A stretch of DNA of 50,227 nucleotides from Planotetraspora phitsanulokensis. GTDB taxonomy: Bacteria; Actinomycetota; Actinomycetes; Streptosporangiales; Streptosporangiaceae. The translations under genes were made by a program, and so were the position numbers. This document shows, piece after piece, positions 14,267 through 22,805 of the stretch (its first letter is position 1; each line of letters starts with the position of its first letter). The notes under the pieces were generated by a model. It saw nothing but the letters and a program-made list of their open reading frames with translations. It was not told the DNA's origin and made no database searches. Where the stretch lies: positions 1 to 50,227 of the forward strand of contig NZ_BOOP01000027.1 of assembly GCF_016863295.1 (NCBI RefSeq), given 5' to 3'.

Positions 14267-14315
14267 CGCATCTTGCGGCGCGCTTCAACGCCATTGGTGC
14301 GCGGACCGCACTCCG

Positions 14316-14388
14316 CAGGGCACGAGGGACTCGAACCCCCAACCGCCGGTTTTGGAGACCGGTGCGCTACCAATTGCGCTAGTGCCCT
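14316..14388 (-). tRNA. trnW: tRNA-Trp (anticodon CCA)
   Basis: 73-nt cloverleaf on the minus strand. The acceptor stem AGGGCAC pairs with GTGCCCT, the anticodon loop is CTCCAAA with anticodon CCA, the T loop is TTCGAGT, and the discriminator base is G73. The CCA tail is not encoded. Its place just upstream of secE-nusG is conserved in bacteria. Confidence 0.95.
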
Positions 14389-17073: not shown

Positions 17074-17838
17074 TCACCGGGTCGAGTTCGCGATCCGGAC
17101 GGCTTCTTCCCTGTTCGCGCCCTCCAGCCGGAGCCCGACGCCGCCGAGCTGCCAGATGAGCGTGGGACCCGCGACCCGGTCCTCGCTGGGCGGGCCGCCG
17201 TTCTTGGGCACGTAGGAGACCTCGTGCGGCTGCTGGATCCACCATCCCCGGATGGTCGGGACGTCCTCGGGCCAGGGCTCACCGAGATCCTTGCGGAACA
17301 CCACGTTCAGGGTCCCGTCGTACTCGTCGAGCCGGAGGCCCGGCCACAAAAGCGTCACCACCCGCCCGCCGTCGGCCACCCGCACGTCGGCCGGATCGCC
17401 CAGCGCGGACGGAACCGCGATGGGGAAGGCGACCGCGCGCCGCGCCTCGTCGAGCGTGACCCGCCTCTCCGAGGGAAGCGGGCTCGGCACACCGGTCGGC
17501 AGCGGCCCGGGCTCGCCGACCCTGATCTCCACCCCGGCGAATCTGAGGATCGACACGACCGCGGCCCGGCCCTGGGGCGTGGCCCCGATCAACACGGCGA
17601 GGAACACCATCACGGCGGCGACGGCCTTACGCGGTGAAAGCCGTAGCCGCGGAAGGAGGCCCGGCCGGCGCGAGAGGGCGCCCTTGGGCCTGGGAGCCTC
17701 CAGGCGGGCCCGTACGGCGCGGGCGGTGGCGTCGGGCGACGGGGTGGAAACGTGCAGCGTCTCGCCGAGCGCGCGGAGTTCGGCTTCCAGCTCGTCGAAA
17801 CGATCGTCCGCGCCCGGACGGTCATGGGAGGAGCTCAC
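17074..17838 (-). CDS. Membrane-anchored anti-sigma-like protein
   Basis: 254-residue protein encoded just after an ECF sigma factor and overlapping it by 17 bp, with an AGGAGG site inside the sigma gene. A cytoplasmic N-terminal part of about 70 residues is followed by one membrane helix (about residues 72-90) and an extracytoplasmic domain with WPGLRLDEYDGTLNVVF and other beta-rich stretches. I see no zinc-binding HxxxCxxC of the ZAS class, so it is a non-ZAS type partner. Sequestering the neighbouring sigma factor is inferred from operon structure and topology. Confidence 0.7.
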   Translation of the reverse strand: MSSSHDRPGADDRFDELEAELRALGETLHVSTPSPDATARAVRARLEAPRPKGALSRRPGLLPRLRLSPRKAVAAVMVFLAVLIGATPQGRAAVVSILRFAGVEIRVGEPGPLPTGVPSPLPSERRVTLDEARRAVAFPIAVPSALGDPADVRVADGGRVVTLLWPGLRLDEYDGTLNVVFRKDLGEPWPEDVPTIRGWWIQQPHEVSYVPKNGGPPSEDRVAGPTLIWQLGGVGLRLEGANREEAVRIANSTR

Positions 17839-18364
17839 GGTCCACCTCCTCTCGCAGGCGCCGCAGGCCGCGGGACGTCCGCGACTTCACCGTGCCCAGC
17901 CGTACTCCGAGGACTTCGGCGGTCTCCGCCTCGGACAGCTGTAAGAAATACCGGCAGACCACCGCCTCACGTTCCCGATCAGGCAGTCTCCGCACCGCGG
18001 CGAGGAGGCGGGCGCCCCCGTCTGCGGCGACCACGATGCCCTCCGGGCTCTCCGGCCCGTCCTGCTCCCGCTCCTGGCCGAGGCGGACCGTGAGATCGGC
18101 CCGGCGGCCGCGGGAACGGGTGAGATTGTGGGTCTCGTTCGCGACGATGCGCAGCAGCCACGGTTTGAAGGCGGCCTCACGCCGGAAACTCCCCAGATGG
18201 CGGAACGCCTTGACGAACGCCTCCTGGACGACGTCCTCGGCCTCGTCACCCGCGCCGAGCAGGGCCGACGTACGGTGTGCGGCCGCGCTGTACCGGGCGA
18301 CCAGCACCTCATAGGCGTCCAGGTCGCCGGCCAGGGCTCGTGTTATGGCCTCGTCGTCATCCAT
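17822..18364 (-). CDS. RNA polymerase ECF sigma factor
   Basis: 180-residue sigma-70 family protein of the extracytoplasmic-function group. Region 2 covers about residues 10-80 (GDEAEDVVQEAFVKAFRHL). Region 4 covers about residues 115-175, with the helix-turn-helix LSEAETAEVLGVRLGTVKSR. It would direct RNA polymerase to a small regulon, with its downstream partner as anti-sigma factor. The promoter region lies at 18365-18476, shared with the divergent methyltransferase. Confidence 0.92.
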   Translation of the reverse strand: MDDDEAITRALAGDLDAYEVLVARYSAAAHRTSALLGAGDEAEDVVQEAFVKAFRHLGSFRREAAFKPWLLRIVANETHNLTRSRGRRADLTVRLGQEREQDGPESPEGIVVAADGGARLLAAVRRLPDREREAVVCRYFLQLSEAETAEVLGVRLGTVKSRTSRGLRRLREEVDRELLP

Positions 18365-19300: not shown

Positions 19301-21175
19301 ATGACCGACTACGCCAAGGCACGGGAAGTCGCCGAGCAGGCCCGTGAGAAGGAGTGGACCAGGCCGAGCTTCGGAAAGCAGCTCTTCCTCGGGGACTTCA
19401 GGCTCGATCTCGTCCACCCGGCACCACGGCTGAGCGAGCAGGAGACCGAGAAGGGCGAGGACTTCCTCCGCGCGCTGCGGAGCCTCCTGCAGGACAAGGT
19501 CGACCCCGCGCTCATCGAACGGACCGCCGTCATCCCCGACGAGGTCGTCAAGGGCCTGGTCGCGCTCGGCGCGTTCGGGATGACGATCGACGAGGAGTAC
19601 GGCGGGCTCGGGCTGAGCCACACCTACTACACGCGGGCGTTGCAGCTGACCGCGTCGTACTCCCCCGCGCTCAGCGCGCTGCTGTCCGCCCACCAGTCCA
19701 TCGGCGTGCCCCAGCCGCTGCGGCTGTTCGGCACGCCCGAACAGAAGCAGCGGTTCCTGCCTCGATGCGCCCGGGGCGAGATCTCCGCGTTCCTGCTGAC
19801 GGAACCCGACGTGGGCTCCGACCCGGCCCGGCTCGCCACGACGGCGGTACGCGAGGGGGACTCCTACGTCATCGACGGCGTCAAGCTGTGGACGACCAAC
19901 GGGGTCGTGGCCGACCTGCTCGTCGTGATGGCCAGGACGGGCGCGAAGATCTCGGCCTTCGTGGTCGAGGCCGACTCTCCGGGCATCACCGTGGAGCGCC
20001 GCAACTCCTTCATGGGCCTGCGCGGCATCGAGAACGGCGTCACGCGGTTCCACCAGGTCCGCGTGCCCGCCGCCAACCTCATCGGCCGCGAGGGCCAGGG
20101 CCTGAAGATCGCACTGACCACGCTGAACACCGGCCGCCTCTCACTCCCGGCCACCTGCGCCGGCACCGCGAAGTGGGCGACGAAGATCGCCCGGGAGTGG
20201 GCGTCGGAACGCGTGCAGTGGGGCCGCCCCATCGGCGAGCACGAGGCGGTCGCGCAGAAGATCTCCTTCATCACCTGTACGGCCTACGCCCTCGAAGCGG
20301 TCGTCGAGCTGGCCGGCCGGCTGGCGGACGACGAGCGCAACGACATCCGCATCGAGGCCGCCCTCGCCAAGCTCTACGGCTCGGAGATGGCCTGGCAGGT
20401 CGCCGACGAGTTGGTGCAGATCAGGGGCGGCCGGGGCTACGAGACCGCCGAGTCGCTCCACGCCCGCGGCGAGCGCGGGGTCCCCGCCGAGCAGATGCTG
20501 CGCGACCTGCGGATCAACCGCATCTTCGAGGGCTCCACCGAGATCATGCACCTGCTGATAGCCAGGGAGGCCGTGGACGCCCACCTGTCGGTCGCGGGAG
20601 AGCTGATCGACCCGAAGGCCGATCTGCGGGCCAAGGGCCGGGCGGCCACCAAGGCGGGCGGCTTCTACGCCAAGTGGCTGCCGAGCCTGCTCGCCGGTCC
20701 GGGCCAGCTGCCGACGGCCTACTCCGAGTTCGGCGTGCTCGCCCACCACCTGCGCTACGTCGAACGCACCAGCCGCAAGCTGGCGCGGGCCACCTTCTAC
20801 GGCATGTCCCGCTGGCAGGGGAAGCTCGAGCACAAGCAGGGCTTCCTGTCCCGGATCGTCGACATAGGCGCCGAGCTGTTCGCGATGACCGCGGTGTGCA
20901 TCCGCGCGCAGGAGGACGGCGCCCACTTCGGCCGCCGGCCGTACGAGATCGCCGACACCTTCTGCGAGCAGGCGCGGCTGCGGGCCGACAGCCTGTTCGC
21001 CCGGCTGTGGGACAACTCCGACTCCCGGGACGTACGGCTGGCCAAGCGCGTCCTTGACGGGCGCTACGCGTTCGTGGAGGACGGCATCCTCGATCCCTCG
21101 CTCGAGGGTCCCTGGATCGCCCCTGCCCGGCCCGGACCCGCCGAGGTCCAGGACCTCCACCGGCACGTCCGCTGA
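19301..21175 (+). CDS. Acyl-CoA dehydrogenase, VLCAD-type with C-terminal extension
   Basis: 624-residue FAD-dependent acyl-CoA dehydrogenase for the first step of beta-oxidation. The dehydrogenase core covers about residues 50-430 (GAFGMTIDEEYGGLGLSH, LTEPDVGSDPARL, LHARGERGVPAEQMLRDLRINRIFEG). The segment FEGSTEI near residue 412 holds the usual catalytic glutamate. The remaining 190 residues form a helical extension, as in VLCAD/ACAD9-type enzymes, which typically favour long chains and membranes. The start is ATG with CCGGAGG upstream. It stands alone on its strand. Confidence 0.92.
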   Translation: MTDYAKAREVAEQAREKEWTRPSFGKQLFLGDFRLDLVHPAPRLSEQETEKGEDFLRALRSLLQDKVDPALIERTAVIPDEVVKGLVALGAFGMTIDEEYGGLGLSHTYYTRALQLTASYSPALSALLSAHQSIGVPQPLRLFGTPEQKQRFLPRCARGEISAFLLTEPDVGSDPARLATTAVREGDSYVIDGVKLWTTNGVVADLLVVMARTGAKISAFVVEADSPGITVERRNSFMGLRGIENGVTRFHQVRVPAANLIGREGQGLKIALTTLNTGRLSLPATCAGTAKWATKIAREWASERVQWGRPIGEHEAVAQKISFITCTAYALEAVVELAGRLADDERNDIRIEAALAKLYGSEMAWQVADELVQIRGGRGYETAESLHARGERGVPAEQMLRDLRINRIFEGSTEIMHLLIAREAVDAHLSVAGELIDPKADLRAKGRAATKAGGFYAKWLPSLLAGPGQLPTAYSEFGVLAHHLRYVERTSRKLARATFYGMSRWQGKLEHKQGFLSRIVDIGAELFAMTAVCIRAQEDGAHFGRRPYEIADTFCEQARLRADSLFARLWDNSDSRDVRLAKRVLDGRYAFVEDGILDPSLEGPWIAPARPGPAEVQDLHRHVR

Positions 21176-21242
21176 CGCCCCTGCGACCGCCTCGCGAGCT
21201 CGGGGCGGCCGCAGGGCGCGCATGGCCGTACGGAAAAACCAG

Positions 21243-21271
21243 TTGGTGGCGACCGGTGGGCTTGTTACGGT
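21243..21271 (+). promoter_or_regulatory. promoter spaced for a leaderless micro-ORF
   Basis: TTGGTG (21243-21248), a 17-nt spacer and TACGGT (21266-21271, matching TAnnnT). The -10 ends 7 nt before an ATG at 21279, the spacing expected when transcription begins on the start codon itself. Confidence 0.5.
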
Positions 21272-21278
21272 CTGACCC

Positions 21279-21305
21279 ATGTGGATTTCGCACCGCGACC
21301 GCTGA
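21279..21305 (+). CDS. candidate leaderless 8-residue leader peptide
   Basis: ATG to TGA ORF encoding MWISHRDR, with no ribosome binding site but a correctly spaced promoter for leaderless translation. Its stop codon opens a 9-bp inverted repeat (21303-21326), so a ribosome on the last codons would prevent that stem. This geometry is typical of regulatory leader peptides. I do not recognise the peptide. The single Trp, His and rare-looking codons do not point to one amino acid. Confidence 0.4.
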   Translation: MWISHRDR

Positions 21306-21326
21306 TCAGCCCGAGTCGGCTGATCA
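21303..21326 (+). repeat. inverted repeat at leader stop codon
   Basis: Perfect 9-bp arms TGATCAGCC (21303-21311) and GGCTGATCA (21318-21326) with a 6-nt spacer. It may form an RNA hairpin or serve as a DNA operator. Confidence 0.7.
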
Positions 21327-21360
21327 CGCGCGACTCAGCTCTCTGGCCCTGTCCTTCTTG

Positions 21361-21397
21361 ACGCGGCAGCTGAGTGAACGGCACCTCGGTGCCGCGT
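21361..21397 (+). promoter_or_regulatory. alternative hairpins before the 50-residue ORF
   Basis: Two mutually exclusive stems share bases 21390-21394: ACGCGGCA (21361-21368) with TGCCGCGT (21390-21397), or CGGCAC (21379-21384) with GTGCCG (21389-21394) around a CTCG loop. The ribosome binding site GAGGAG at 21409-21414 follows. The layout suggests a folded leader that could switch. Confidence 0.45.
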
Positions 21398-21421
21398 TCT
21401 CGACGTCCGAGGAGATCCCAC

Positions 21422-21574
21422 ATGCCTATCCGACCGTCCGGCAAGCAGGCCAAGAACCTGCCGAGCCCATCTCAGCCGCAGCGTGGCCGGCCGCCGGCGC
21501 CCGCTCGCGCGCTGCCGCCCCGGCAGCCCGTCCGCCCGATGCGGCAGCCGCGCCGGCTGCCGCGGTCGAAGTGA
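21422..21574 (+). CDS. small basic Pro/Arg-rich protein, unknown
   Basis: 50-residue ORF with a strong GAGGAG site 7 nt upstream, G/C-rich third positions and its own downstream terminator, so I take it as real. Composition is dominated by Pro, Arg and Gln with a few Lys and no acidic residue or Cys. There is no membrane helix. The end reads RPMRQPRRLPRSK. It could bind nucleic acid or be secreted by an unusual route. I do not recognise the family and assign no function. An in-frame upstream start at 21374 exists but lacks a binding site. Confidence 0.5.
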   Translation: MPIRPSGKQAKNLPSPSQPQRGRPPAPARALPPRQPVRPMRQPRRLPRSK

Positions 21575-21590
21575 TCCACCCGTGAAATGA

Positions 21591-21624
21591 GTGAAGGGCA
21601 CCCGCCGACCTGGGTGCCCTTCAC
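21591..21624. terminator. bidirectional terminator between small ORF and thiolase
   Basis: Perfect 13-bp stem (GTGAAGGGCACCC/GGGTGCCCTTCAC) with an 8-nt loop, between the convergent 50-residue ORF and thiolase gene. It can serve both. Confidence 0.85.
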
Positions 21625-21659
21625 GACTGGGACACGGCCACGCTACAGCCGTATGGAGA

Positions 21660-22805
21660 TCAGAGGCGCTCGATGATGGTGACGTTCGCCTGTCCGCCGC
21701 CCTCGCACATGGTCTGCAGGCCGTAACGGCCGCCGGTGCGCTCGAGCTCATGCAGAAGCTTGGTCATCAGGATCGCGCCGGTGCCGCCGAGCGGGTGCCC
21801 GAGGGCGATCGCGCCGCCGTTCGGGTTCGTCCGCGCGGGGTCCGCGCCGATCTCCTTGAGCCATGCGAGAGGCACCGGGGCGAACGCCTCGTTGATCTCG
21901 ATGACGTCGATCTCGTCGATGCTCAGCCCGGCCTTGCTCAGGGCCTTGCGGGTCGCCGGGATGGGCGCGGTGAGCATGTAGACGGGGTCGTCACCCGTGA
22001 GCGCCAACGTGACGATCCGGGCGCGCGGGGTCAGACCGTGGTCGCGGACCGCCTGCTCGGAGGCGATCAGCAGGGCGCCGGAGCCGTCCGAGATCTGCGA
22101 CGAGGTCGCCGCGGTGATCTTCCCGTCGGGACGGAGGGTCTTGAGCTCGGCCAACTTCTCCAGCGTCGAGTCCGGCCGGGGGCCCTCGTCGTCCTCGACC
22201 CCGTTGAGCGGCGCGATCTGCTCCTTGAAGTAGCCGTTCGCGACGGCCTTGGCGGCCCGCTGGTGGCTTTCGTAGGCGTACTGGTCCAGTTGCTCGCGGC
22301 TCAGGTCCCACTTGTCGGCCATCAACTCCGCGCCGCGGAACTGGCTGATCTCCTGCTTGCCGTAACGCTCGACCCACTTGTCGCCGAAGGGGAACGGCAT
22401 GCCCTTCTCCAGCGCCATCGTGATGCTCGCCCCCATCGGGACGATCGACATCGACTCGACGCCTGCGGCCACGACGAGGTCCTGCGTGCCGGACAGCACG
22501 CCCTGGGCCGCGAAGTGGATCGCCTGCTGTGAGGAGCCGCACTGCCTGTCGATGGTGACGCCGGCGACGTTCTCCGGGAGGCCGGCGCTCAGCCAGGCGT
22601 TGCGGGCGATGTCCATCGACTGCGGACCCACCTGCATGACGCAGCCCATGATCACGTCTTCAACCGCGGAGGGGTCGACGCCGGTGCGCTCGACGAGTGC
22701 CGAGAGCGTGTGCGCGGCCAGATCCGTGGGGTGGACGGTGGAGAGCCCGCCCTTCTTCTTGCCGACCGGGGTCCGGACCGCCCCGACGATGTACGCCTCT
22801 GCCAC
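21660..22805 (-). CDS. Acetyl-CoA C-acyltransferase (thiolase)
   Basis: 381-residue thiolase that cleaves 3-ketoacyl-CoA, or condenses acetyl-CoA in the reverse direction. The acyl-accepting Cys89 is in DRQCGSSQQA, the catalytic His is in GGAIALGHPLGGTGA, and the second Cys is in TMCEGGGQANV. The start is GTG with GGAGGG upstream. Steroid or fatty-acid specificity cannot be told from sequence. Two dyads upstream of it suggest control by a TetR-type regulator. Confidence 0.93.
   Translation of the reverse strand: MAEAYIVGAVRTPVGKKKGGLSTVHPTDLAAHTLSALVERTGVDPSAVEDVIMGCVMQVGPQSMDIARNAWLSAGLPENVAGVTIDRQCGSSQQAIHFAAQGVLSGTQDLVVAAGVESMSIVPMGASITMALEKGMPFPFGDKWVERYGKQEISQFRGAELMADKWDLSREQLDQYAYESHQRAAKAVANGYFKEQIAPLNGVEDDEGPRPDSTLEKLAELKTLRPDGKITAATSSQISDGSGALLIASEQAVRDHGLTPRARIVTLALTGDDPVYMLTAPIPATRKALSKAGLSIDEIDVIEINEAFAPVPLAWLKEIGADPARTNPNGGAIALGHPLGGTGAILMTKLLHELERTGGRYGLQTMCEGGGQANVTIIERL

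Follow-up and report, generated by a model that had tools for sequence, protein, structure and literature searches.

A conserved leader ORF, hairpin array and small Pro/Arg-rich protein gene in Planotetraspora and related genera: a probable translational attenuator of the toiL kind under a WblC/WhiB7-like promoter

Attenuators based on an upstream open reading frame (uORF) whose own codons mask the next start site have rarely been described, and toiL of Escherichia coli topAI-yjhQP is one example. In the available portions of the report on this system, a sequence within the toiL uORF pairs with the following gene's ribosome-binding site, which ribosomes stalled on the uORF are proposed to release (PMC12121999). 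The DUF1127 attenuator of Sinorhizobium meliloti, as outlined in the available part of its report, contains a uORF that monitors translation and is induced by tetracycline (PMC12218461). In work on macrolide leaders of the ermDL type, short MRLR peptides stall with macrolides, the accessible sections of the study laying stress on an Arg/Lys-X-Arg/Lys motif (PMC8298421).

The locus compared with these systems here lies in a window of 50,227 nucleotides, the whole stretch of DNA analysed, which is one entire contig of the 9.17-Mb genome of Planotetraspora phitsanulokensis. A first-pass annotation had proposed at this place a compact transcription unit with the layout of translation-dependent attenuation. 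The compact unit is borne out, its parts being in place and conserved together as a block. The promoter ending 7 nt before an ATG, the perfect inverted repeat starting at the leader stop codon, and GAGGAG before a basic ORF of 50 residues were all found where they had been placed, and direct reading confirmed the 8-codon leader ORF. The features, in coordinates of the window, are as follows.

up to 21175, plus strand: ORF reading as an acyl-CoA dehydrogenase, the upstream neighbour, named by eye from its translation
21234-21239, plus strand: A-rich box AAAAAC, WblC/WhiB7-like, 3 bp 5' of the -35 element (comparison of 95 loci)
21243-21271, plus strand: promoter TTGGTG-N17-TACGGT (TTGGTG 21243-21248, TACGGT 21266-21271), then 7 nt and the ATG at 21279
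21279-21305, plus strand: leader ORF MWISHRDR including its stop codon, probably leaderless, its 5' part being the predicted left arm of P0
21279-21289, plus strand: left arm of P0, the predicted pairing between the leader and the small gene's start region; partner at about 21411-21423 in the minimum-energy structure of the window leader
21303-21326, plus strand: hairpin P1, starting at the leader stop codon, a perfect 9-bp inverted repeat (TGATCAGCC at 21303-21311, GGCTGATCA at 21318-21326)
21333-21375, plus strand: hairpin P2, ACUCAGCU...GCC.UGUC/GACG.GGC AGCUGAGU, with nearly invariant letters
21379-21394, plus strand: hairpin P3, CGGCAC-CUCG-GUGCCG, with 85% of cells paired
21409-21423, plus strand: Shine-Dalgarno (SD) sequence GAGGAG (21409-21414) and start region, right arm of P0 in the modelled pairing
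21422-21574, plus strand: Pro/Arg-rich protein of 50 residues, stop included (homologues compared at 95 loci)
21591-21624, no strand assigned: 13-bp inverted repeat between convergent genes, arms 21591-21603 and 21612-21624
21660-22805, minus strand: ORF reading as a thiolase, the downstream neighbour, named by eye from its translation

The reading that we favour, and consider reasonably probable, is a translational attenuator resembling toiL, with a leaderless uORF under a promoter of the WblC/WhiB7 type, in which ribosome stalling would release the gene. Judging from promoter geometry, transcription would begin at or beside the A of the leader ATG. An unhindered ribosome would read the leader of 4-9 codons and depart at once, after which the leader codons would form P0 by pairing with the small gene's SD and start codon, looping out P1-P3 and leaving the gene silent. 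P0 would be kept from forming if a ribosome were detained on the leader, as by a ribosome-targeting drug acting at its start codon or close by; the start region would then open and the Pro/Arg-rich protein would be made. In Streptomyces WblC responds to the same stress, so that promoter and leader may together act as an AND gate. We infer the transcription start, WblC binding, ribosome stalling and the direction of regulation from sequence features, and support for the mechanism is greatest in sister lineages and least in the clade of the window itself.

As far as the available account of toiL extends, the two systems have in common a uORF pairing with the start signal of the next gene and a proposed release by stalling, which is modelled here (PMC12121999). 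toiL has an SD of its own, whereas the Planotetraspora leader is probably leaderless under a WblC-like promoter; unlike toiL, moreover, the present unit holds three hairpins inside the predicted loop, encodes an unrelated Pro/Arg-rich protein and is known from sequence alone. The whiB7/wblC attenuator of actinobacteria, in the parts of the two reports at hand, likewise has a uORF under a WblC-type promoter and a connection with translation stress (PMC7157823, PMC12121999). The DUF1127 attenuator is similar in that a uORF controls a small gene, but differs, according to the available part of its description, in acting by premature transcription termination dependent on C-rich codons (PMC12218461).

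A simple comparison of 60 genomes found the small protein in its own genome and in four of four congeners, with no match in the remaining 55. Comparison of DNA recovered the same spot in two further genera, and an exact 26-base pattern led to eight named records from Planotetraspora, Planomonospora, Planobispora and Streptosporangium. A first covariance model, built on seven leaders, matched 65 of 341 genomes of the family; a second, rebuilt from those 65 leaders, placed the unit in 95 of the 341 (14 of 68 genera), with one listed match per genome, while 246 lacked the RNA element at the threshold used. A protein profile matched 82 of the 341 genomes, 80 of them within the RNA-positive set, and at the remaining 15 of the 95 loci, where the protein fell below the profile threshold, the ORF was seen directly. 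The unit is conserved as one block comprising promoter layout, leader, hairpins and protein. Its presence in 95 of 341 genomes, with the promoter layout at every one of the 95 loci and a pattern unique in its own genome, marks it as real and beyond chance; the first-pass annotation had named a lack of conservation in close relatives as grounds for rejecting its proposal, and the opposite was found.

The surroundings of the unit are partly conserved. A thiolase lies convergent and downstream at 82 of the 95 loci, no more than 900 bases away at 77, and a dehydrogenase lies directly upstream (within 600 bases) at 33. At 13 loci the thiolase was not seen in the stretch examined, which in some cases was perhaps too short; if it is truly absent at a locus, the unit would have moved there as a block. 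An RNA search of 345 genomes of the class gave matches in 16, of which 14 belong to the family. One of the matches outside (E 0.001) precedes an unrelated pdxS-like ORF and was judged to be chance; the second (E 0.004) covers 36 model positions. Three weak matches to the first RNA model were seen in the window's own genome (L074, L075 and L076; E 0.07-4), and a plasmid search gave no match to the unit. A pattern search for ATGCGCYTTTAC leaders, which used a single -10 distance and hit 3 of 341 genomes, was excluded from the counting. Two rows of a 97-row alignment are weak antisense matches of loci already counted, and figures for 63 sequences are cited instead.

TTG, a spacer of 17 or 18 and a TANNNT element ending 6-7 nt before the leader start codon were found at all 95 loci. 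The published WblC layout in Streptomyces coelicolor, in the portion of the report available, comprises a GAAAWY box 3 bp before the -35, a TKGMNN -35 element, a spacer of 16-19 bp, TANNNT, and a start 7-8 bp after the -10 (PMC7157823); box place, spacer and -10 agree with this layout at 95 of 95 loci. In every case the hexamer that precedes the -35 by 3 bp carries A as its fourth letter and A/T at positions 3-5, and its positions 1-5 are 95% A/T vs 29% in the flanks. The exact GAAAWY sequence occurs at 14 of the 95 loci, at least five of its six letters at 29 and at least four at 88; in a comparison set of just four other promoter-like sites, one had at least four letters. Since the exact box is present at only 14 loci, the likeness of this putative WblC/WhiB7-type promoter rests on the place of the box and its A-richness. 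The pattern AAAAY-N3-TTG-N20/21-TANNNT-N6/7-ATG, which was fitted to the site, has a single match in the 9.17-Mb genome, at this locus, and its reversed control has none. A scan with the strict generic sigma-70 consensus, for which shuffles gave an expectation of 0, reported no promoter at the site. The same genome has nine WhiB-domain matches, and of the eight ORFs inspected one carries an AT-hook tail; the promoter of this WblC-like gene itself reads GAAAAT-AGG-TTGCCC. Read by eye, the region upstream of the AT-hook gene (L154; roughly the 530 bases leading up to the ORF start at 1459) contains a long uORF and a GC stem followed by a T-run. The Planotetraspora unit differs from this wblC leader in having neither the long uORF nor the T-run stem and in controlling another gene.

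The leader ORF occupies the same place at all 95 loci, has 4-9 codons and begins M/V-[WR]-[ILF]; the leaders of L097 and L100 start with GTG. The leader MWISHRDR has no SD-like sequence upstream, and because the ATG stands 6-7 nt after the -10 box at 95 of 95 loci, the ORF is probably leaderless. All leaders compared encode Trp (TGG) or Arg at the second position, as a leader sensing starvation for one of these amino acids might do; however, each leader has only one such codon, Trp and Arg interchange between lineages, and the rest of the peptide is variable (MWINS, MRLYL, MWILYGDR), which makes amino-acid control very improbable. The leaders of one lineage begin MRL, as do the short MRLR peptides that stall with macrolides, but MRLYL, MWINS and MRIFPY do not contain the Arg/Lys-X-Arg/Lys that the available sections of the ermDL work emphasize (PMC8298421), and macrolide stalling on MRL-type leaders is a lead only.

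The likely core of the unit, which the first-pass annotation did not mention, is that the leader codons are complementary to the SD and start region about 110 nt downstream, with different letters in different lineages. Four leader types can be distinguished. In MWINS leaders ACUCCU pairs with AGGAGU; in MRIFPY leaders UUUCCUUAC pairs with GUAAGGAGA; in MRLYL leaders CCUUUAC and GUAAUUC pair with GUAAAGG and GAGUUAC; and in the window leader AUGUGG and AUUUC pair with CCACAU and GAGAU. For MRIxxY and MRLYx the cognate duplex is clearly the strongest: combining a leader with the SD region of another group lowers its strength from -21.1 to -14.5 or less for MRIxxY and from -16.2 to -12.7 or less for MRLYx. 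MWI-short and MWI-long leaders pair equally well with each other's SD regions. Against shuffled leaders, duplexes reached p <= 0.05 in 31 of 62 cases, distributed as 10 of 10 MRIxxY, 19 of 29 MWI-short, 1 of 4 MRLYx and 1 of 19 MWI-long, the group of the window. Identical RNAs were merged in these tests, leaving 62 of 65 for duplexes and 92 of 95 for codon choice and full folds, and L099, whose gene start was mis-set by the model although its ORF is intact, was left out of all three. In full folds the fraction of SD bases paired to the leader, by group, was 0.66-0.98 for native vs 0.33-0.53 for shuffled leaders, with a single-sequence p <= 0.05 in 32 of 92. The pairing of leader and SD exceeds shuffled controls on average, and uORF-codon pairing with the SD, of the toiL kind, was found for three leader types.

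In one genus, represented by 34 sequences, 91% of P0 is paired, as against at most 65% when slid and 89.8% when shuffled. At the P0 pair to which the second stop-codon base belongs, 18 of these sequences have A-U, 10 have G-C, 3 have G-U and 3 another combination, and the covariation score of the set was reached by none of 500 shuffles; the number of P0 pairs with two-sided changes was not above that of shuffles (269 of 500). A codon choice in favour of P0 (p <= 0.05) was seen in 6 of 10 MRIxxY, 15 of 34 MR[LF] and 8 of 29 MWI-short leaders. Codons that are rare in six window genes (TTT in 0 of 53 Phe, CTT in 6 of 197 Leu, ATT in 2 of 92 Ile) are retained in leaders where P0 uses them. In the 19 sequences of the window clade, 97% of P0 cells are paired vs at most 62% when slid; these pairs have no two-sided change and no excess over shuffles, codon choice favours P0 in 0 of 19, and the energy of the native P0 is -15.8 vs -18.3 kcal/mol for synonymous versions. 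In the window clade P0 is thus a predicted pairing that stays intact across the sequences, with support from neither covariation nor codon choice.

These weaker results, together with the one-third to one-half of SD bases that shuffled leaders still pair, could be accommodated if P0 were chance pairing of GC-rich RNA and the WblC-type promoter acted alone, with no control by the leader. The lineage-specific anti-SD sequences, the exchange of A-U for G-C within P0 and the retention of the rare codons argue against such an account, which we regard as distinctly unlikely.

Modelling of a blocked leader is consistent with release of the small gene in the favoured, toiL-like mechanism. Across 62 leaders, mean modelled accessibility of the SD rises from 0.11 to 0.41 or 0.36 when the block is at the start or the stop codon, and that of the AUG from 0.63 to 0.81 or 0.88. 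In the free window RNA, 0.42 of the SD bases are predicted to be paired to the leader and 0.54 to lie in a local hairpin; upon blocking, the AUG would open from 0.41 to 0.98 or more, and the local hairpin would hold the SD mostly closed (0.04 to 0.12-0.28).

The most telling evidence for P0 is a natural deletion. Two genomes found by the protein profile only, G193 and G210 (the latter 63% complete), have no P2/P3 letters, yet a WblC-like promoter, an MRLYQ leader, P0 and the protein are all retained; these minimal forms lie at 444-532 of L158 (G193) and at 278-346 on the minus strand of L159 (G210). Folding gives z values of -3.4 and -3.5, a level equalled by 1 of 200 shuffles.

Of the central hairpins, P1 shows two-sided changes at each of the 9 pairs of its main helix among 63 distinct sequences, and sliding the pairing partners lowers the paired cells from 88.6% to 17-55%, in rows that were aligned to the covariance model itself and are hence biased towards it. 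The fold of the window leader is more stable than those of shuffles (z -4.2; -1.3, -1.6 and -2.5 in three relatives). The letters of P2 hardly change across genera, one pair going from G-C to A-U in 13 sequences, whereas P1 and the leader vary. Such near-invariance would be expected if P1-P3, and P2 above all, were the real sensor, as a riboswitch or a protein-binding site, perhaps for the small protein itself, with the leader secondary; the product is rich in Arg, a frequent property of RNA binders. However, the two genomes with minimal forms retain promoter, leader, P0 and protein in the absence of P2 and P3, P1 is lost or reduced and the left arm of P2 degenerate in part of one genus, and Rfam 15 gave no covariance-model match up to E 1 in 21200-21660. 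A sensor in the hairpins is therefore unlikely. Extra hairpin-like insertions within or between P1 and P2 were observed in leaders L049, L097, L100, L120, L126 and L129-L133.

The first-pass annotation had also pointed to two mutually exclusive stems at 21361-21397. The letters are complementary as claimed, ACGCGGCA (21361-21368) with TGCCGCGT (21390-21397) excluding the CGGCAC/GTGCCG stem (21379-21384/21389-21394), and GACGCGG and CCGCGTY remain complementary in nearly all leaders compared. A leader ribosome could in principle choose between these stems, with one stem, or Rho, halting transcription ahead of the small gene; according to the available portion of the topAI report, Rho has a secondary role there (PMC12121999). 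However, modelling of four states gave the 8-bp alternative stem, which is probably not the switch, a probability no higher than 0.05, both of its arms are nearly invariant and hence uninformative on covariation, and a scan of 21170-21660 found no T-run terminator on the plus strand between leader and small gene. Because of this last result classic transcription attenuation is unlikely, and we rate the exclusive-stem mechanism as very improbable. Control that depends on translation remains the likely part of what had been proposed, and the predicted long-range pairing of leader codons with the start region is the likelier switch. The 13-bp stem annotated as a terminator (21591-21603/21612-21624) exists, but no T-run follows it; the repeat is present in four aligned congeners, in one of which only the left arm falls inside the aligned stretch, and it is a possible terminator for both convergent genes.

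An intact homologue of the small ORF is found at 94 of the 95 loci. In L071 (minus strand, after 1501) the ORF is frame-shifted, with the C-terminal motif in another frame, which could be sequencing error or decay. The other 93 ORFs, L071 and L099 being omitted from the protein counts, have 37-118 residues (median 49) and consist of 23.5% Pro, 18.5% Arg, 7.9% Lys and 2.1% acidic residues with no Cys, and all 93 have a C-terminal PRRxP. Of 96 comparable, non-independent pairs, 95 had a pN lower than pS, indicating purifying selection on the small ORF. The family had not been recognised on first reading, and searches of Pfam and NCBIfam, with 3 proteins and then with 28, gave no match (0 of 28 members at E <= 0.1); PDB sequences likewise gave 0 matches at E <= 10. 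From composition and charge one may guess at a disordered protein that binds RNA or the ribosome. DUF1127 proteins are also Arg-rich. The PPRRIP tail may resemble proline-rich antimicrobial peptides, which bind in the ribosome exit tunnel. It is conceivable, though quite improbable, that the product is a home-made Pro/Arg-rich ribosome-binding peptide, presumably in the manner of the animal proline-rich peptides, made only upon stalling to protect, clear or park ribosomes. If true, bacteria would possess a novel class of ribosome factor whose production needs two keys, a WblC-type promoter and a leader that senses the ribosome directly.

The literature searched, outside subscription journals and supplements, does not name the unit or its parts in titles or abstract openings; so far as it shows, both the variant of uORF translational attenuation and the small protein family are best read as new. 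The 95 natural versions in 14 genera, with two stripped-down ones, may make the rules of such an attenuator readable. The small protein, not described in that literature, is probably synthesized by antibiotic-producing actinomycetes when their translation is stressed, and it may be relevant to intrinsic drug tolerance. Elsewhere in the window, an ORF of 180 residues at 17822-18364 on the minus strand appears by eye to be an ECF-type sigma factor, and a tRNA-Trp (CCA) at 14315-14388, also on the minus strand, is the sole RNA gene detected.
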